A stretch of DNA of 64,000 nucleotides from assembly GCF_900142735.1 (NCBI RefSeq), contig NZ_FRBY01000002.1, forward strand, positions 372,001 through 436,000. The letters are read 5' to 3'. The stretch's first letter is position 1, and each line of letters begins with the position of its first letter. Below the pieces are notes generated by a model. That model saw only the letters and a list, made by a program, of their open reading frames with translations, did no database searches and was not told the origin of the DNA. Position numbers and translations under genes: made by a program. This document shows positions 4,509-11,521 of the stretch, piece by piece. Origin of the DNA: Flavobacterium saccharophilum (lineage in GTDB: Bacteria; Bacteroidota; Bacteroidia; Flavobacteriales; Flavobacteriaceae).

Positions 4509-5411
4509 ATGAAATTACAACAACTTAAATTCGCTTTAATTGCCCTAGGTACAACTTTCTTTCTTAGCTGTAGCAGCGATAGCGGTAGTGATGATCCTAC
4601 TCCTACAACACCGGAAGTAAAAACAGAAGTTAAACTTTCTACAAGTGCAACATTAGGATCTTATCTGACAGACAAAAGTGGAAGATCTTTGTATTTCTTC
4701 TCAACAGATGCAAAAGGACAATCCTCTTGTACAGGAGGATGTGAAGCCTTATGGCCGCCTTTTTATGTAGACAATTTAACTGCTGATAAGCTAGGTGCTG
4801 GTTTAACATTTTCAGATTTTGGAACTATCACTACAGCATCTTCTAAAAAACAGCTAACCTATAAAGGCTGGCCTTTGTATTACTATGCGCCGGTTTCCGG
4901 AACTGATCCTTACGGCAATGCAGGTACAAATACAATAGAAAAACCGGGTGAAATAACCGGTGACGGATTTGGTGGTGTATGGTTTATTGCAAAACCAGAT
5001 TATTCTATCATGATCGTAAGAAGTCAGCTTGTGGGTCATGATGGTAAAAACTACAAATCAGACTACACTGTTGGAGATGGTTTAACTACCTATTTTACAG
5101 ACGCAAAAGGTTTGACATTATATACTTTCGTAAATGACAATTACAAAGTAAACAATTTTACAGCAGCAGATTTTTCAAACAATGCTATTTGGCCCATATA
5201 TGAAACAGATAAAATTGTTGTTCCTTCTATTCTTGACAAATCTAAATTTAGTGTTATTACAGTATCTGGCAAATCTCAATTAGTCTACAATGGCTGGCCT
5301 TTATATTATTTTGGGCAAGATGCAAAAATAATGGGCGCAAATAAAGGAATTAGTTTCCCTAGCCCGGGAGTTTGGCCTGTACCGGTAAAAGACATACCTC
5401 TTGCGATATAA
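4509..5411 (+). CDS. secreted-repeat lipoprotein (PF03640 family)
   Basis: A 300-residue lipoprotein. The signal peptide ends in a lipobox (FFLSC, lipidated Cys21) followed by a Ser/Asp-rich and Thr/Pro-rich tether. The body contains two copies of the family's secreted repeat: one starting LGSYLTDKSGRSLYFFSTDA with a CxxxC pair (SCTGGC), the other starting YFTDAKGLTLYTFVNDN. Each copy is closed by a near-identical block: LTYKGWPLYYYAP and LVYNGWPLYYFGQ. The family is widespread in envelope and redox-associated clusters, but no enzymatic role is established that I know of. It stands alone, about 140 bp before an envelope operon on the same strand. Family call is firm, role unknown. Confidence 0.82.
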   Translation: MKLQQLKFALIALGTTFFLSCSSDSGSDDPTPTTPEVKTEVKLSTSATLGSYLTDKSGRSLYFFSTDAKGQSSCTGGCEALWPPFYVDNLTADKLGAGLTFSDFGTITTASSKKQLTYKGWPLYYYAPVSGTDPYGNAGTNTIEKPGEITGDGFGGVWFIAKPDYSIMIVRSQLVGHDGKNYKSDYTVGDGLTTYFTDAKGLTLYTFVNDNYKVNNFTAADFSNNAIWPIYETDKIVVPSILDKSKFSVITVSGKSQLVYNGWPLYYFGQDAKIMGANKGISFPSPGVWPVPVKDIPLAI

Positions 5412-5552
5412 ACTGCTAACCATTAGTAGAAATTCATGTAATTCCTTTTAAATCTATTTCAAATTAGTTCAATTTCTATTGGACTAATTTGAAATAATAA
5501 AAAGGATGAAAAACTGCCCTACTGTAGTATAATTTAAAATCCTAAAATTAAC

Positions 5553-5948
5553 ATGACTAAAACGAGAATAAAGATTCTGATATTCTTATTAGTGATAAGT
5601 TTTGGCCCTTACTATATCTATCAAAATGTTTTATATAAAGATGCCAGAGACATCAATAATGAAAAATCAACACTTACCATTAGTGCCCAAAATCTAGAAA
5701 AAGAATATGCTGCAAATCCATCTCAGGCCGACGCTAAATACTTAAATAAAACAATTGAAGTTCAAGGAATCGTTTCAGAAGTTACTGATTCTACTATGGT
5801 TGTAGACAAAAAAGTTTTTTGCAAGATGAACGGAGAAGTAAAAAAGACTTTGATAAACAAACAAATCAATATAAAAGGAAGATGTATTGGTTATGATGAT
5901 TTGTTCGAACTAGTAAAATTTGATCAATGCAGTATTCAACAAAATTAA
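5553..5948 (+). CDS. OB-fold (tRNA_anti-like) envelope protein
   Basis: A 131-residue protein with an N-terminal membrane or signal segment (about residues 6-26, ending YYIYQNVLY) and a small domain typical of the tRNA_anti-like OB-fold family: KYLNKTIEVQGIVSEVTDST, a cysteine-containing core (VFCKM) and INIKGRCIGYDDLFELVKFD. In Bacteroidota such proteins are exported or membrane anchored and are not expected to bind tRNA. It is the first gene of a tight operon with a DUF5777 barrel (2-bp gap), a cytochrome and YceI. I infer a role in the envelope module rather than nucleic acid binding. Confidence 0.72.
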   Translation: MTKTRIKILIFLLVISFGPYYIYQNVLYKDARDINNEKSTLTISAQNLEKEYAANPSQADAKYLNKTIEVQGIVSEVTDSTMVVDKKVFCKMNGEVKKTLINKQINIKGRCIGYDDLFELVKFDQCSIQQN

Positions 5949-5950
5949 AT

Positions 5951-6796
5951 ATGAAAAAAAAAATATTCATAATAGCCAGTTTCCTAATCTGTTTCTACAG
6001 TAACGCTCAAGATGATCTTCTTTCTGACCTGGATTCCACTCAGGTCGTTGACAAAAGTGTCACAGCTACCTTTAAAGCCTTGCAGATTATAACCTTACAA
6101 TCTACAAAACTAGCTGCCAAGAAAGAATTCTATATGGTAATATCGCATCGATTTGGGTCCGTAAAAGGAGGTATTTCCGAGTTTTTTGGTTTTGATGACG
6201 CCACGACAAAAATTGGTGGAATCTATGGTGTAACCGATTGGCTTTCCGTTAGTGCATCGCATCATACGCTGCTTAAAATGAATGAAGCATCAGCCAAATT
6301 TAGACTTGTAAGACAAAGTGAAACCTTCCCTTTTGATATTGTTGGTTACAGTACTATCGATTTTAATAGCGGATTAAAAGAAGAAGATTATCCAAAAATT
6401 GAATTTTCTGACCGTTTGAGTTATATACACCAAATTTTGATTTCAAGAAAATTCTCTGACAGACTTTCTTTAGAATTAGTTCCTTCCTTCATCCATAAAA
6501 ACTTATACAATCCTGAAATAGAAAACGATAACCAATTCACTTTAGGAGCTGGTGGACGATTAAAATTAACTAAAAGACTTTCTCTTAATTTAGAATATGG
6601 TCAGAATTTTAACAAACCAGACTTTTACAACAACCCCTTATCTGTAGGACTTGACATAGAAACCGGCGGTCACGTTTTTCAATTGCTTTTTACAAACTCG
6701 CAATCAATGACTGAAAGCGGTTACTTAACAAGTGCTGCCGGCGATTGGGGAAAAGGCGATTTTTTCTTTGGGTTTAATTTATATAGAGTTTTTTAA
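5951..6796 (+). CDS. DUF5777-family beta-barrel protein
   Basis: A 281-residue exported protein. The ATG at 5951 gives a clean signal peptide ending CFYSNAQ; an in-frame TTG-type start at 5927 lies within the upstream gene and is rejected. The mature part alternates short beta segments (VISHRFGSVKGG, IYGVTDWLSVSAS, RLSLNLEYGQNF) and ends GDFFFGFNLYRVF, the aromatic C-terminal strand of outer-membrane barrels. The block GGHVFQLLFTNSQSMTESG is a family signature. It sits between an OB-fold protein and a small cytochrome c, which recur with DUF5777 in Bacteroidota; the transported or bound molecule is unknown. Confidence 0.78.
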   Translation: MKKKIFIIASFLICFYSNAQDDLLSDLDSTQVVDKSVTATFKALQIITLQSTKLAAKKEFYMVISHRFGSVKGGISEFFGFDDATTKIGGIYGVTDWLSVSASHHTLLKMNEASAKFRLVRQSETFPFDIVGYSTIDFNSGLKEEDYPKIEFSDRLSYIHQILISRKFSDRLSLELVPSFIHKNLYNPEIENDNQFTLGAGGRLKLTKRLSLNLEYGQNFNKPDFYNNPLSVGLDIETGGHVFQLLFTNSQSMTESGYLTSAAGDWGKGDFFFGFNLYRVF

Positions 6797-6807
6797 AAGT
6801 ACAAAAT

Positions 6808-7158
6808 ATGAAAAAATACATTTATTTATCAGGCCTTATCCTGTCACTATGTGCTTGTGAATCGAATACGTATGAAAGTCTGCAGGAACCAACTGTTATA
6901 GTTGAAAAAGTTACTTACACGGCAAATGTCAAATCTATTATTGATCAAAATTGCATTGGCTGTCATTCTTCAGGGGGATCACTTATTCCGTTAGAAACTT
7001 ATGATGAGGTAAAAAATGCCGTGTCTACTACAAATTTATTAGATCGGATTCAGCGACAAAACGGAATGCCGGGACTAATGCCAAAAGCAGGAAGAATGCC
7101 GCAGGATAAAATAAACACCATCCTGCAATGGAACACAGATGGATTATTGGAAAATTAA
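6808..7158 (+). CDS. small c-type cytochrome lipoprotein
   Basis: A 116-residue lipoprotein. Its lipobox is LSLCAC (Cys17 or the neighbouring cysteine lipidated), and one haem c site is present, CIGCH at residues 49-53 preceded by VKSIIDQN. The methionine-rich GMPGLMPKAGRMP in the C-terminal half can supply the distal haem ligand. The size and spacing fit the planctomycete-type or Paracoccus-like single-haem domain found in many Bacteroidota lipoproteins. It is 11 bp after the barrel gene and 13 bp before the yceI start, which indicates co-transcription. The electron partner is not evident in the window. Confidence 0.85.
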   Translation: MKKYIYLSGLILSLCACESNTYESLQEPTVIVEKVTYTANVKSIIDQNCIGCHSSGGSLIPLETYDEVKNAVSTTNLLDRIQRQNGMPGLMPKAGRMPQDKINTILQWNTDGLLEN

Positions 7159-7171
7159 ATCAACAGTAAAA

Positions 7172-7714
7172 ATGAAAAAACTAATTGTGCTCCTACTTTT
7201 GTTTGTTGGAACAGTAAATGTTTCGGCTCAAAAATATATGACAAAAACCGGAAGCTTAAAATTTGAAGCTTCTGTGGATTCTTTTGAAGAAATTGCCGCA
7301 GAAAATAAAAACACTTCTGCCATTTTAGAATCTGCAACGGGAGAAATTGCAGTTCTGACGCTTGTAAAAGGATTTCGGTTCAAAATTGCCTTAATGGAAG
7401 AACACTTTAATGAAAATTATATCGAATCAGATAAATTTCCTAAAGCAACATTTAAAGGTAAAGTAGAAGATTTTGATGTAGCAAAACTTTCGTCAGCCTC
7501 AGGCATGTTTAAGATTTCCGGAGATTTAACCCTCCATGGAAAAACAAAAAAAGTAACAACAAATGCTAAAATTTCAAAATCGGGTGATAAGATTACGATA
7601 ACAGGAAATTTTGAGGCAAAACCGGAAGATTTTGATATTGAAATCCCTAAGCTGGTTAGCAAAAAAGTGGCTGACAAAGTAAAGATCACTTTCAATTTAC
7701 TACTTACTAAATAG
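7172..7714 (+). CDS. YceI family periplasmic protein
   Basis: A 180-residue secreted lipocalin-like protein. The ATG at 7172 gives a signal peptide ending TVNVSAQ; the longer in-frame version from 7139 overlaps the cytochrome gene and disrupts the signal peptide. Family hallmarks are the FPKATFKGKVEDF block, GDLTLHGKTKKV, and the C-terminal KVKITFNL strand. YceI proteins bind polyisoprenoid or other lipids and often accompany cytochromes, which fits its place as the last gene of the OB-fold/DUF5777/cytochrome operon. A promoter for the next locus starts about 40 bp after its stop. Confidence 0.9.
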   Translation: MKKLIVLLLLFVGTVNVSAQKYMTKTGSLKFEASVDSFEEIAAENKNTSAILESATGEIAVLTLVKGFRFKIALMEEHFNENYIESDKFPKATFKGKVEDFDVAKLSSASGMFKISGDLTLHGKTKKVTTNAKISKSGDKITITGNFEAKPEDFDIEIPKLVSKKVADKVKITFNLLLTK

Positions 7715-7756
7715 AAGACATATTAAAAATGTAATCTATTCTCTTTTTTGTTTTCA

Positions 7757-7788
7757 TTGTTAAAGCTGACTAAAAATCAATATATTTG
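7757..7788 (+). promoter_or_regulatory. Bacteroidota-type promoter of the ilvN leader
   Basis: TTG at 7757-7759, a 21-base spacer and TATATTTG at 7781-7788 match the TTG/TAnnTTTG pattern. Transcription would start near 7795, about 10 bases before the first leader peptide. Confidence 0.65.
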
Positions 7789-7805
7789 CCTCTCATAAAA
7801 AGAAA

Positions 7806-7865
7806 ATGAAAAACAATAGTAACATCTCTATTATTATTAGTGCAGCCATTATTAGATGTCTGTAG
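7806..7865 (+). CDS. isoleucine-rich attenuator leader peptide 1
   Basis: A 19-codon ORF, ATG to TAG, encoding a peptide with six isoleucines: one at position 7, three in a row at 9-11 and a pair at 15-16. It contains no valine and one leucine. It is followed at once by GAGAGGTG (about 7865-7872), which can pair with the 5' arm of the terminator at 7902-7933. A ribosome stalled on the isoleucine codons would leave this segment free to form an antiterminator; one reaching the stop codon would cover it. This is classical transcription attenuation responding to charged tRNA-Ile. Confidence 0.82.
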   Translation: MKNNSNISIIISAAIIRCL

Positions 7866-7901
7866 AGAGGTGTTGTATAAATATATTTGAAGATATAATT
7901 T

Positions 7902-7933
7902 AAAAAGACCTCCCTTAATCAGGAGGTCTTTTT
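7902..7933 (+). terminator. attenuator terminator 1
   Basis: A perfect 12-bp stem (AAAAAGACCTCC with GGAGGTCTTTTT) around an 8-base loop ending in a T run. Its 5' arm is complementary at six of seven positions to GAGAGGT just after the leader 1 stop codon, giving a competing antiterminator. Confidence 0.88.
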
Positions 7934-7947
7934 GATTTTAACCCCTT

Positions 7948-8004
7948 ATGAAAAACATAGCAACTAACATTATTATCGCAATTATTATTATTCGTATCAC
8001 ATGA
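7948..8004 (+). CDS. isoleucine-rich attenuator leader peptide 2
   Basis: An 18-codon ORF, ATG to TGA, encoding nine isoleucines: position 4, three at 8-10, four in a row at 12-15, and 17. No leucine or valine is present. It begins 15 bases after terminator 1, so it is only transcribed if the first attenuator is read through. GAGTCAGG at 8006-8013, two bases after its stop codon, can pair with the CCTTTCTC arm of terminator 2. It has the same layout as the first unit but a different sequence outside the common start MKN. Confidence 0.82.
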   Translation: MKNIATNIIIAIIIIRIT

Positions 8005-8031
8005 CGAGTCAGGATTCTATTGCACAATGAT

Positions 8032-8070
8032 AAAAACCTTTCTCTATCAAAACGAGAAAGGTTTTTTTTT
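8032..8070 (+). terminator. attenuator terminator 2
   Basis: A 13-bp stem (AAAAACCTTTCTC with GAGAAAGGTTTTT) with a nine-base loop and a long T run. It lies 43 bases before the ilvN start and ends the second attenuator. Confidence 0.88.
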
Positions 8071-8112
8071 GAAAAAAAATAAATCAAATAATTAATAAAT
8101 ATTCACAAAGAA

Positions 8113-8658
8113 ATGGCCATGAAAAACCAATACACCTTTACCATTTATGCCGAAAATCAAGTACAATTGTTCCAAAAAATCACGTTAATCTTTTCGAGGA
8201 AAAAAATTAATATAGAAAGCTTCAATTTTTCTTCTTGTGAAGTCGATCCAATATCTCGCTTCACCATCTTAATTACAGAAACTTATGAAATCGTTCAAAA
8301 TTTAGTGCCTCAAATTGAAAAAATAATTGAAGTTTATAAATGTTTTTGCAATACCAATGAAGAAATTGTCTGGAAGCAGATTGCTCTTTTCAAAGTGCCA
8401 ACAGCCACTATATACGAAGAAAACTTAAATTCTTTTCTAAAAAAACCCAATATCACAGCTGTTTCCATCGAAAGAAATTACACTGTTTTTCAGGCTACTG
8501 GAAACGAAGAAGAAATCAATGACTTAGTTATCAAATTGTCTGATTTTAATCTTATTGAATTTGCAAAAAGTCCCAGAATTGCACTCATAAAAAAGAGTGA
8601 GGGTTTTGCCAGGGAAATATCAGCTAGGGAAAGAGATAAAGAGGAACATTTTATATAA
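8113..8658 (+). CDS. ilvN: acetolactate synthase small (regulatory) subunit
   Basis: A 181-residue protein with an N-terminal ACT domain (YTFTIYAENQVQLFQKITLI, then the RKKINIESFNF strand and SRFTILI) followed by the C-terminal half of small subunits (EIVWKQIALFKV, ending PRIALIKKSEGFA). The small subunit activates the catalytic IlvB subunit and confers feedback inhibition by branched-chain amino acids. It is usually encoded beside ilvB, ilvD and ilvC; here it stands alone, with unrelated genes on both sides. The product is intact in length. Control by two successive isoleucine attenuators suggests that the amount of regulatory subunit is tuned to isoleucine supply. ATG 8119 is an alternative start two codons downstream. 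Confidence 0.85.
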   Translation: MAMKNQYTFTIYAENQVQLFQKITLIFSRKKINIESFNFSSCEVDPISRFTILITETYEIVQNLVPQIEKIIEVYKCFCNTNEEIVWKQIALFKVPTATIYEENLNSFLKKPNITAVSIERNYTVFQATGNEEEINDLVIKLSDFNLIEFAKSPRIALIKKSEGFAREISARERDKEEHFI

Positions 8659-8810
8659 CATCATGGAAAAACTTAAATTATTTTTCTACTATTTTCTGCT
8701 GTCAAAATTCCTCAGAAAGTTTAAATTGTTATATTTACTTTTTTAGCTGACAAAATATAGTGTTCGAATATTAGTTTTATACTATTGTCAATTAATTTTT
8801 AGAAGTCAAA

Positions 8811-9548
8811 ATGGAAAAACATATAGAAACGGTAGCCTCGTTACCTCTGGAAAATACTCCAACTACATACCCTCAAATAAAAAAAGCCGATTTATTACCC
8901 CATCCGGAATCTCGCTTAGATTCTATGGAAATGAAGGAAACACCGCTTAGCGATTCCACTATTCCTTATAGAGATTTAACGAGCGTTACCAGTAAAAAAG
9001 AAAGTATTTCCCGACTTATTGCGAAACTTGATGTAGAAAATAGTATCAGGTATCAGCGAACTGTAGAAGATACCTATTGCAATGTTTATTCTTACGATTA
9101 TTGTTACTTCTCGAGAGTATATCTTCCTACAGTTTGGTGGACGGAAGAATCTCTTAAAAAAATGGCGCAAGGACAAGAGGTTGAAGCTGTTTTTGAGCAA
9201 ACCGTAGACAGAATTTATTCCAGTGCCATAACCGATTGGTTTGCTGAATGGGGACCCAATTTTGGCTGGGAGAAAATGGATACTGCCGATGAAATTCAAA
9301 AGAAAGTAAATGAAAATGGCGGTATTGGAATAATTTGTGCCAAAAGAAGAGAAAAAGGACTTTCGGGACATATCGTTCCCGTAGTTCCGGAAACTGATCA
9401 ACATAAGGCTTATCGTGAAAACGGCGTGGTAGTTTATCCCTTGCAATCTCAAGCAGGAAAACTGAATTATAATTATTTTTCGGAAGTAAGAAAAGACTGG
9501 TGGAATGATGAATTATATTCCTCTTTTGTGTTTTACTATCATGAATAA
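8811..9548 (+). CDS. predicted Cys/His amidase or peptidase-like protein
   Basis: A 245-residue protein with no signal peptide. About the first 80 residues are charged and proline-containing and look disordered. A compact domain follows with YCNVYSYDYC (Cys at about 89), YLPTVWW, a WFAEWGPNFGW block, GGIGIICAKR and GLSGHIVPVVPE. A Cys in a YCNVY context and a later His in a GHI(V/A) strand is the pattern of NlpC/P60-, CHAP- or papain-like amidases, in which Cys and His form the catalytic pair. I infer such a fold, acting on a peptide or amide bond; a substrate is not visible. Without a signal peptide it would be cytoplasmic or exported by another route. It is flanked by ilvN and by a predicted amidoligase. 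Confidence 0.5.
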   Translation: MEKHIETVASLPLENTPTTYPQIKKADLLPHPESRLDSMEMKETPLSDSTIPYRDLTSVTSKKESISRLIAKLDVENSIRYQRTVEDTYCNVYSYDYCYFSRVYLPTVWWTEESLKKMAQGQEVEAVFEQTVDRIYSSAITDWFAEWGPNFGWEKMDTADEIQKKVNENGGIGIICAKRREKGLSGHIVPVVPETDQHKAYRENGVVVYPLQSQAGKLNYNYFSEVRKDWWNDELYSSFVFYYHE

Positions 9549-9979: not shown

Positions 9980-11521
9980 ATGAAAGACAATCAGACAAAA
10001 AAATATTATTGGGGAATTGGATTAGAAAACGAAACCTATATGCAATTTGAGGAATCCTTAATAGTTTCTGGTGCGTTTATACAAGAGAAAATTGGTTTTG
10101 AAAAATACAGTATTGACTACAGAAAATGCTACAAACCGGAAAGTCTGGCTCCTGTTTTGCAAAAAGCTTTTAATTCCGAAGAAAGTTATAAAGTGAGCCG
10201 AATGATGAATAGTCATTCGCTTGAAAAACTGGATATTAATTATCAGCACAAAACCTTATCCCCAATAAAGCCATTTGTGGATACCGAAAATGGTGAGGTG
10301 GCTGCAGAACCAATTGAGAATCCTGAGTATTTAGGAAAATCAATTATGGAAATTTTCCTTGAAGATCAGCCGTACAATATTCAGAGTATGATTACTCAAA
10401 GAAACAAAACAATGGGATCAGTACATTTTGATGGTGATTCTATAGAATTTGTTACCAAATATTTTGAAAACAGAACAATTGCTGAGTCTTGCAAAGAACT
10501 AAAAGCAACCAAAAAGTTATTCTTAGATAAAATCAATGAATCGTCTGTTTTGAATGGAAAATTAAACTTTCCGGATTACAACAACGGACTTAATATGTTC
10601 ATGACCAATCAGGAAAACCTGGTTTTGTTCAATAACGGAACGTATCACTTTCATATTACTTTACCGTCATTGACTGAAGACAGCCGAATTGTCGACTATA
10701 CTGATTTTGAAAAAACACACGCCAATGCGATTTATTTATTGCAGTGGTTTGAGCCTTTTTTCATAGCAACTCTTGGAAGTCCTGATATTATGGGCGTAAT
10801 AAGCGATAAATACAGTCTGGATAAAAAGTTTACTTTAGGTTCGATGCGAAATGCAATGTCGCGTTACATTGGCGTTGGAACGTACAACAAAGCAATGCCA
10901 AAAGGTAAAATTCTAACTTACAACGTAGATAATTTTAGAGAACTACTGAAATTTGAAAAGGAAGAAAACATTTGGTGGCGCGATCAGATTGAAACTGAAA
11001 TGGAATACGAAATGCTTTCAGAAGTTGGTCTTGATTTTAATCAGGAAAAAATGTATCAAAGCGGTTTCGAATTCAGAAGTTTTGACGAGTTTCCTGCAGA
11101 ATATCTAAATGATGTACTTTTCTCAATTATTTTAATTTGTGAGCATTCACTTAACCTTCCTGATGTTCAGTGGGGTCATGACAGTAAAGCTTGGAACAAC
11201 CTTGTTTTTAAAACGCTGAAAATGGGTTATGCAACTGAAATTAATGAAGAAGAAAAAAACGAAGTTTTAAATTTACTTCAGCTATTAAATCCTTCAGATG
11301 AAAATTATAATACTTTAAAATCTGAATTTGATGCGATTGTATTATTAGACGAATTCTTCTTTAAAATTCTGGCTGTTTTACATGATAAATACAAAGACAA
11401 CAATATTTGTCTTGATGCGATGTATGGGCAAAAAACAAGTTCTCCACCAAAATGGAATAACTTTAATAAATACCAAACAGAGCGCCATTTACAGCAAATT
11501 GGGAATTTCTCTGATAATTAA
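9980..11521 (+). CDS. predicted amidoligase-like protein (glutamine synthetase/GCS fold)
   Basis: A 513-residue cytoplasmic protein that I do not recognise as a named enzyme. Motifs suggest the COOH-NH2 ligase superfamily: GIGLENETY near residue 12 resembles the G-x-E-x-E start strand; GTYHFHITLP near 220 resembles the metal-binding HxH strand; ANAIYLLQWFEPFFIATLGS and SMRNAMSRYIGVGTYN resemble the following helix and arginine-containing block. Members use ATP to join a carboxylate to an amine, as glutamate-cysteine ligase and the amidoligases do. The C-terminal 150 residues are mostly helical and match nothing I know. A bidirectional terminator closes the gene. Alternative: a novel family unrelated to amidoligases. 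Confidence 0.45.
   Translation: MKDNQTKKYYWGIGLENETYMQFEESLIVSGAFIQEKIGFEKYSIDYRKCYKPESLAPVLQKAFNSEESYKVSRMMNSHSLEKLDINYQHKTLSPIKPFVDTENGEVAAEPIENPEYLGKSIMEIFLEDQPYNIQSMITQRNKTMGSVHFDGDSIEFVTKYFENRTIAESCKELKATKKLFLDKINESSVLNGKLNFPDYNNGLNMFMTNQENLVLFNNGTYHFHITLPSLTEDSRIVDYTDFEKTHANAIYLLQWFEPFFIATLGSPDIMGVISDKYSLDKKFTLGSMRNAMSRYIGVGTYNKAMPKGKILTYNVDNFRELLKFEKEENIWWRDQIETEMEYEMLSEVGLDFNQEKMYQSGFEFRSFDEFPAEYLNDVLFSIILICEHSLNLPDVQWGHDSKAWNNLVFKTLKMGYATEINEEEKNEVLNLLQLLNPSDENYNTLKSEFDAIVLLDEFFFKILAVLHDKYKDNNICLDAMYGQKTSSPPKWNNFNKYQTERHLQQIGNFSDN

Follow-up and report, generated by a model that had tools for sequence, protein, structure and literature searches.

The 64,000 nt stretch of Flavobacterium saccharophilum DNA analysed here (the window) contains an ilvN gene preceded by two isoleucine-rich leaders in series, each with a terminator, all on the plus strand. 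As read from the sequence, the region opens with a Bacteroidota-type TAnnTTTG promoter box, TATATTTG, at 7781–7788 (the consensus as in the excerpts of PMC9723704), with a possible TTG upstream of the box at 7757–7759. Leader ORF 1 (7806–7865; MKNNSNISIIISAAIIRCL and a stop, 19 codons, 6 Ile), read directly and aligned in our alignment A1, contains segment 1 of unit 1 (AACATCTC, 7821–7828), which pairs with segment 2 (GAGGTGTT, 7867–7874); the latter lies right after the leader 1 stop and has either segment 1 or segment 3 as its partner. Segments 3 and 4 make up terminator 1 (about 7902–7933), recognized by direct reading and by folding, and leader ORF 2 (7948–8004; MKNIATNIIIAIIIIRIT and a stop, 18 codons, 9 Ile; read directly, aligned in A2) begins 14 nt after it, the terminator 1 T run, or a later short T run, ending 8–14 nt before the ATG of leader 2. 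In unit 2, segment 1 (TTCGTA, 7991–7996) pairs across the leader 2 stop with ACGAG of segment 2 (GACGAGTCAGGATT, 8003–8016, placed by alignment and a masking test), and segments 3 and 4 form terminator 2 (about 8032–8070, again from direct reading and folding). The gene itself, an acetolactate synthase (AHAS) small-subunit homologue by Pfam, TIGR00119 and fold, lies without ilvB at 8113–8658, with homologues suggesting a start at 8119. Pfam gave no ilv-type match for any of six neighbouring ORFs, and two ORFs downstream of ilvN (8811–9548, 245 aa; 9980–11521, 513 aa) have no Pfam or NCBIfam match. Unit 1 also contains a second TAnnTTTG box (7882–7889), which precedes terminator 1 and lies 58 nt ahead of leader 2.

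ORFs of this composition are rare in the window, where only three of 345 ATG ORFs of 14–26 codons on both strands have at least six Ile codons, and two of these three are the leaders. When 7757–8112 was shuffled with dinucleotide content preserved, two such ORFs were obtained in 0/5000 shuffles and at least one in 96/5000, and both units fold better than their own shuffles (z −4.5 for unit 1, z −4.1 for unit 2); chance ORFs and terminators were ruled out on these grounds. A T-box or riboswitch was likewise rejected, since an Rfam search of 6500–9500 returned only seven weak, unrelated matches with E values up to 1, none of them over the gathering score and none to a T-box covariance model.

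A search of 398 Flavobacterium genomes with the window ilvN as query gave 64 places in 61 genomes at E values up to 1e-36, and these were examined together with nine named relatives and one family locus (L016), making 74 loci; the closest named relative of the window gene is that of F. aquidurense DSM 18293 (79 % identity). At 33 of the 74 loci ilvB lies upstream, and the 620 nt that precede ilvN contain no Ile leader. The other 41 are without ilvB, and two serial Ile leaders are present at every one of them (41/41); 37 are places from the genus sample, in 34 genomes. Three (L045, L048 and L070) are repeats of L006, L007 and L009 and do not enter A1 or A2, so that 38 distinct loci were aligned. 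A search for ilv and leu proteins over at least 1190 bases downstream found ilvA directly behind ilvN at three of the 41 (L061, L075 and L079) and none of the genes sought at the remaining 38, so the description ‘lone’ was corrected for the set as a whole. The leaders of the 41 loci have 5–10 Ile within 16–25 codons, a later in-frame ATG having been taken as the start for leader 1 of L074, L086 and L092 and for leader 2 of L105. Their Ile codons are ATT (460), ATC (163) and ATA (11) out of 634, with ATA at 11/591 in the 38 distinct loci; in eight ORFs of the window ATA makes up 47/218. A TAnnTTTG box is found at all 41 loci, ending 15–20 nt before the ATG of leader 1 (background 31/852 stretches of 75 nt), and an upstream TTG within the tested span at only 13. 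The box inside unit 1 was seen in the window and L046 only (2/41), and a second promoter directly before ilvN was discarded as a candidate, a scan for the TAnnTTTG consensus having found no box in the 75 nt upstream of the ilvN match at any of the 41 loci. At L006 (2695–2837) and L046 (2206–2347) leader 1 is without the stop of the window's leader 1 and extends through segment 2 (24 aa); such extension occurs at five of the 38 distinct loci, the others being L089, L099 and L102.

Covariation was tested in the 38 distinct loci with two kinds of control, 500 shuffles and slid versions of each helix, the slid controls being important because related rows can exceed shuffles without structure. In unit 1, helices 1:2 (AACAUC with GAUGUU) and 3:4 together are paired in 92.9 % of cells, with five pairs showing changes on both sides and a covariation score reached by 0/500 shuffles; the 1:2 helix alone is paired in 87.8 % of cells with three such pairs, and the terminator 1 helix is 97.3 % paired in 38 sequences with two. 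The same two helices of unit 2 are paired in 93.9 % of cells, 21 of which have both-side changes, and here too no shuffle of the 500 reached the score; among 36 distinct rows, four have A-U instead of G-C at one pair of the 1:2 helix (91.7 % paired) and 16 have G-C instead of A-U at a pair of terminator 2, and the terminator helices of both units are about 97 % paired in the 38 loci. The antiterminator pairing (2:3) of unit 1 is present in 86.0 % of cells and its score was reached by 2/500 shuffles, its both-side changes being confined to the apical helix, with no covariation found in the basal helix across the 38 loci. That of unit 2 is 94.2 % paired without covariation, since 500/500 shuffles reach its score and some slid versions exceed it; GAU/AUC-like partners lying one alignment column apart in L074 and L084–L086 were not counted for this helix, and the row group L074/L084–L086/L092 pairs poorly in 1:2 of unit 1. 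Slid versions pair in at most 65 % of cells for all helices, and the scores for 1:2 plus 3:4 of either unit and for 2:3 of unit 1 exceed every slid version. For unit 1 the slid controls are beaten in covariation score and in the proportion of paired cells, but not in the raw number of cells changed on both sides (11 against up to 13 for 1:2 plus 3:4, and 10 against up to 11 for 2:3).

The relation between leader occupancy and pairing was examined by a partition function in which segment 1 was masked and segment 4 was not yet made. Masking raised the predicted 2:3 pairing in unit 1 of 37 of the 38 loci and in unit 2 of all 38. Unit 1 of the window is a weak case: at equilibrium without ribosome or segment 4, 2:3 has a probability of 0.68 and 1:2 of 0.01, masking brings 2:3 to 0.69, and the full RNA folds into 1:2 plus the terminator. 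As 2:3 is already favoured there without a ribosome, termination by default would require a ribosome near the stop codon or a particular order of folding. The earlier note had named a segment in each unit (GAGAGGTG and GAGTCAGG) as able to pair with the 5′ arm of its terminator, and the masked-leader prediction does show these pairings, though masking leaves unit 1 of the window almost unchanged. In both units a run of Ile codons within an ORF, followed by an intrinsic terminator, precedes the gene, and both-side changes together with masking point to mutually exclusive 1:2 and 2:3 pairing tied to occupancy of the leader, the contribution of 2:3 in unit 2 being one of conservation. Two complete isoleucine attenuators in series behind a promoter had been claimed, with leader codon conservation and folding of both units as checks, and comparison among relatives bears this out in the predicted anatomy, in its conservation at every ilvB-less locus and in the covariation of 1:2 and 3:4.

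Serial units are not confined to ilvN without ilvB. A covariance model, R1, built from unit 2 matched at E values up to 0.01 in at least 194 of the 398 genus genomes, most of the matches being weak, and we examined 49 loci besides the window (L117–L166 without L155; 38 fetched places and 11 further loci) that were chosen by their match to the model. Two or more leader–terminator units are present at 36 of these 49, a count that is conditional on the model match; among the remaining 13, no leader with a terminator was found in L164–L166, and the stretches of L164 and L165 contain no ilv gene. Two units precede all 14 further ilvN–ilvA loci found with R1 and both ilvBN–ilvA operons (L118 and L126). 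Before two ilvE–ilvD–ilvB operons the series is triple (L131:1360–1897 in genome G340 and L142:467–860 in genome G157), one Ile/Val leader ORF coming first and two near-identical Ile leader ORFs after it, all three with terminators; an Ile/Val leader combined with one or two Ile leaders is found at L131, L142, L148 and L151. In the ilvE-type operons two units are 91–97 % identical at seven of the eight loci compared, and units therefore seem to duplicate repeatedly. On the minus strand of L130 (stretch 5400–7800), an Ile/Val leader with a terminator lies about 1 kb upstream and is followed by an ORF of about 263 aa, a double Ile leader and an ilvE operon. Outside the family R1 gave weak matches in five genomes, with E values of 1e-7 to 6e-5.

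We propose that the leader of the window ilvN comprises two ribosome-mediated isoleucine attenuators, placed serially on one transcript. With charged tRNA-Ile plentiful, the ribosome would complete each leader, segment 2 would lie under the ribosome or in the helix with segment 1, and the terminator would form; with charged tRNA-Ile scarce, the ribosome would stall in the Ile run and mask segment 1, segment 2 would pair with the terminator's 5′ arm, and RNA polymerase would continue. With a separate leader and terminator in each unit, transcription of ilvN would need readthrough twice, which would multiply the leak down and steepen the response (an AND gate for one signal); such logic or steeper dose response follows if both terminators act independently on one transcript. 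That serial attenuation works in this manner we regard as quite probable, stalling, readthrough and AND behaviour all being inferred from sequence comparison, and the double attenuator probably keeps ilvN tightly off until isoleucine is short, its expression then rising steeply and in response to isoleucine starvation specifically. The occurrence of both units at all 41 loci, with Ile runs and both-side pair changes in each, argues against the idea that only one unit is regulatory and the other a decaying duplicate kept by chance, as does the difference between units 1 and 2 of the orphan loci (median identity 66 %, compared with 57 % for letter shuffles), so that neither resembles a fresh duplicate. 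We think a single working unit improbable, while recognizing that unit duplication is frequent in the ilvE-type operons, that L006 (F. aquidurense, the same as L045) and L046 are without the leader 1 stop found in the window, that leader 2 of L006 has six Ile codons against nine, and that masking scarcely alters the predicted fold of window unit 1. It is also conceivable, though unlikely, that the two leaders divide the sensing instead of forming an AND gate, by answering different ranges of isoleucine charging or by one of them responding in addition to translation initiation or another cue. The placing of segment 1, which falls within the leader in unit 1 and spans the stop in unit 2, would suit such a division, as would the promoter-like box inside unit 1 of the window and L046 and the four loci at which Ile/Val and Ile leaders are combined; the almost exclusive use of ATT and ATC in both orphan leaders speaks against it, since the same tRNA is then probably read.

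The serial attenuation that we favour would control a gene which is not the only ilvN of its genome. A Pfam search with ACT_AHAS_ss found three, namely that of the window, one in a leuA–leuB–ilvD–ilvB–ilvN–ilvC operon and one on contig 6, and a single ilvB was found. The earlier note's ‘lone’ ilvN thus holds in that there is no ilvB at the locus, but not for the genome, where the ilvDBNC operon includes a cognate ilvN and another ilvN stands without ilvB; a full ilv operon containing its own ilvN, which the note had said would weaken the orphan point, is present as leuAB–ilvDBNC. The window orphan as sole small subunit of the genome was dismissed, a cognate ilvN adjoining ilvB and a further ilvB-less ilvN being present. 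The contig 6 gene is again preceded by two Ile leaders, each with a terminator (L003:1157–1411); it is 50 % identical to the window ilvN and falls in another part of the orphan clade, and so is not a recent copy of it. Upstream of ilvD in the operon lies one mixed Ile/Val leader ORF, MQISIIITSVVVVNVIFTSASGMV, with one terminator (L004:11009–11290, minus strand), and ilvA on contig 12, encoding threonine deaminase, follows just one unit, which is of the unit 1 type (MKNLNNIIISISIIAIQQ and a terminator; L116:2358–2482). This second double-attenuated ilvN, the single units before ilvA and the ilvD operon, and the serial units before other ilv operons of the family go beyond what the earlier note described.

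The window IlvN has ACT_AHAS_ss and ALS_ss_C domains over their cut-offs (PF22629, 37.2 against 27; PF10369, 41.2 against 23.2) and scores 68.6 with TIGR00119 (cut-off 56.9) and 80.5 with NF008864, below the 119 of that model. Its AF2 model, made with an alignment of 33 orphans, has a pLDDT of 84.5, and the best PDB matches are AHAS small subunits with TM values of 0.5–0.6. In a tree of 93 proteins, built by a quick method with eight of 28 canonical proteins of the family and with long-branch and composition warnings for L134 and L135, comparison places 38 orphans and 10 ilvN–ilvA forms in one clade (SH-aLRT 100) inside the operon-type Flavobacterium ilvN. The existence of ilvBN–ilvA operons with a double leader makes loss of ilvB from such an operon a likely history of the orphans. 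Orphans other than that of the window are 44–79 % identical to it, and the cognate ilvN is 96–100 % identical to that of the window genome across the 34 orphan-carrying genomes (96–99 % in the other 33). All 34 have ilvB, with 12 further, weaker ilvB homologues (26–39 % identity) in 11 of them. The orphans are under purifying selection (dN/dS 0.10–0.24 in 12 of 13 pairs and 0.49 in one pair with a dS of 0.027), weaker than that in the five operon ilvN pairs compared.

The predicted effector site is altered in the orphans. Its residues were placed by alignment to E. coli IlvH (2f1f), where the conserved Asn and Gly presumably correspond to N11 and G14, with a role in valine sensitivity; the same Gly we take to be G20 of Corynebacterium glutamicum IlvN. 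Both residues are kept in 0/48 orphans as against 64/65 other proteins, a count that leaves out L087 and, as the same genes as other rows, L118, L126, L127, L132 and L133; four of the 14 ilvN–ilvA loci (L136, L137, L138 and L141) are outside both this count and the tree. The Gly taken alone is kept in 26 of the 48 and replaced in 22, the window orphan being among the latter with Asn kept and Gln instead of Gly. Asp at the N11 position is also known in feedback-regulated actinobacterial subunits, and for this reason effector may still be bound by those orphans that combine this Asp with the Gly (18 of 48). At L117, L119–L125, L134 and L135, ilvA is immediately preceded by a short (144–147 aa) and very diverged ilvN form that itself follows a double Ile attenuator; all 10 of these extracted forms have Lys at the conserved Asn position, their branch in the tree is 2.08, and L119, the one tested, is below the TIGR00119 cut-off. 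These short forms may no longer act on AHAS.

Our working hypothesis for the window protein is that, during isoleucine starvation, this AHAS small-subunit paralogue with an altered Ile/Val site would associate with the single IlvB of the cell alongside the cognate IlvN, and that IlvB with the orphan IlvN would give an AHAS less inhibited by isoleucine and valine. Tuning of a distant IlvB by the orphan had been suggested in the earlier note and is plausible with one ilvB in the genome; but IlvB adjoins its own IlvN, so that the orphan must act next to the cognate subunit, and the effector-site changes suggest relief from feedback over simple tuning. Binding to and activation of IlvB by the orphan is the most likely role from what its sequence implies, and we would give about an even chance to its being a feedback-desensitized AHAS subunit. 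A function away from AHAS, in the regulation of threonine deaminase (IlvA) or in some other role of the ACT domain, is brought to mind by the relatives that have a double attenuator and ilvA immediately behind them (14 loci and three more) and by the short, diverged ilvN–ilvA forms with L119 below the family cut-off; yet the window orphan retains both AHAS small-subunit domains, the fold and a TIGR00119 score over the cut-off, and ilvB is present in 34/34 orphan genomes tested, which makes such a function rather unlikely for it. Less AHAS activity would cut isoleucine synthesis too, and the ilvN–ilvA gene pairs argue for a raised isoleucine output, so we find it hard to credit, despite the orphan being encoded without an extra IlvB and having an altered effector site, that the protein is a brake which displaces the cognate IlvN, lowers AHAS activity and balances isoleucine and valine flux during isoleucine starvation.

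Attenuation as found in textbooks has one leader and one terminator, and the enteric ilvGMEDA and ilvBN operons have classic leader-peptide attenuators. A leader-peptide attenuator is also described for Corynebacterium ilvBNC in the excerpts of PMC8709942. These systems share with the present one a leader peptide rich in branched-chain amino acid codons and transcription attenuation before AHAS genes, but they have one leader, whereas here two serial units (elsewhere three), rich in isoleucine only, precede a small-subunit gene that is not accompanied by the gene of the catalytic subunit. Salmonella mgtCBR, the only tandem leader-peptide case met in the literature searched, has, like the region described here, two short ORFs in one leader that both act on transcription; it responds to two signals, ATP and proline, each of which can stimulate, is without two intrinsic terminators by that paper's own contrast, and is presented there as a singular case of tandem attenuators that serve different signals (PMC3641672, as excerpted). 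In the window, by contrast, one amino acid would be sensed twice, with a terminator per unit, both leaders being, on their sequence, rich in isoleucine with ATT and ATC codons. Tandem T-boxes and riboswitches are serial transcription-attenuation units too (PMC7583486, with metE as an example in PMC3641672; both as excerpted), and tandem T-boxes likewise sense tRNA charging in series; there the RNA senses tRNA or metabolite directly, whereas here translation of the leader ORF is the predicted sensor. Within the same genus, structured 5′ regions and clues to leader peptides before amino-acid operons are reported for F. psychrophilum without detail, and leader-peptide attenuation is proposed for them as it is here; serial units are not mentioned in section 19 of that paper and ‘ilv’ occurs 0 times in its main text (PMC9723704, as excerpted). 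The substitutions G20D/I21D/I22F in C. glutamicum IlvN relieve feedback inhibition by branched-chain amino acids (PMC8709942, as excerpted), and a glycine of the regulatory subunit is among the changes both there and in the orphans; the former is an engineered mutant and the latter are natural paralogues with the glycine replaced in 22/48. Among the matches listed in the open-licence literature, as excerpted, there was no report of serial leader-peptide attenuators for the same amino acid or of an orphan ilvN in Flavobacterium, and the same excerpts yielded no case of a regulatory subunit exchanged under starvation for a spare, effector-site-altered one that has no catalytic partner.

New RNA families of Bacteroidota could be built from the covariance models, the window region having no Rfam match over the gathering score. 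Natural series of one, two and three near-modular units, placed on the same pathway in related genomes, provide a ready test of what cascaded attenuators do to dose response, leak and noise, and the orphan subunit points to a regulatory strategy in which starvation would change the regulatory subunit of an important enzyme through expression of a spare, effector-site-altered one. We suggest tentatively, and with slightly less conviction than for the desensitized subunit itself, that serial attenuation by the same signal may be a general and repeatedly evolved device of the Flavobacteriaceae, in which one to three units stand before ilvA, ilvN, ilvN–ilvA, ilvBN–ilvA or ilvE-led operons and the number of units would set the leak and how steeply expression responds to tRNA-Ile charging; the most specialized product of this device would be a feedback-proof AHAS subunit, induced by isoleucine starvation, that re-tunes one shared IlvB.
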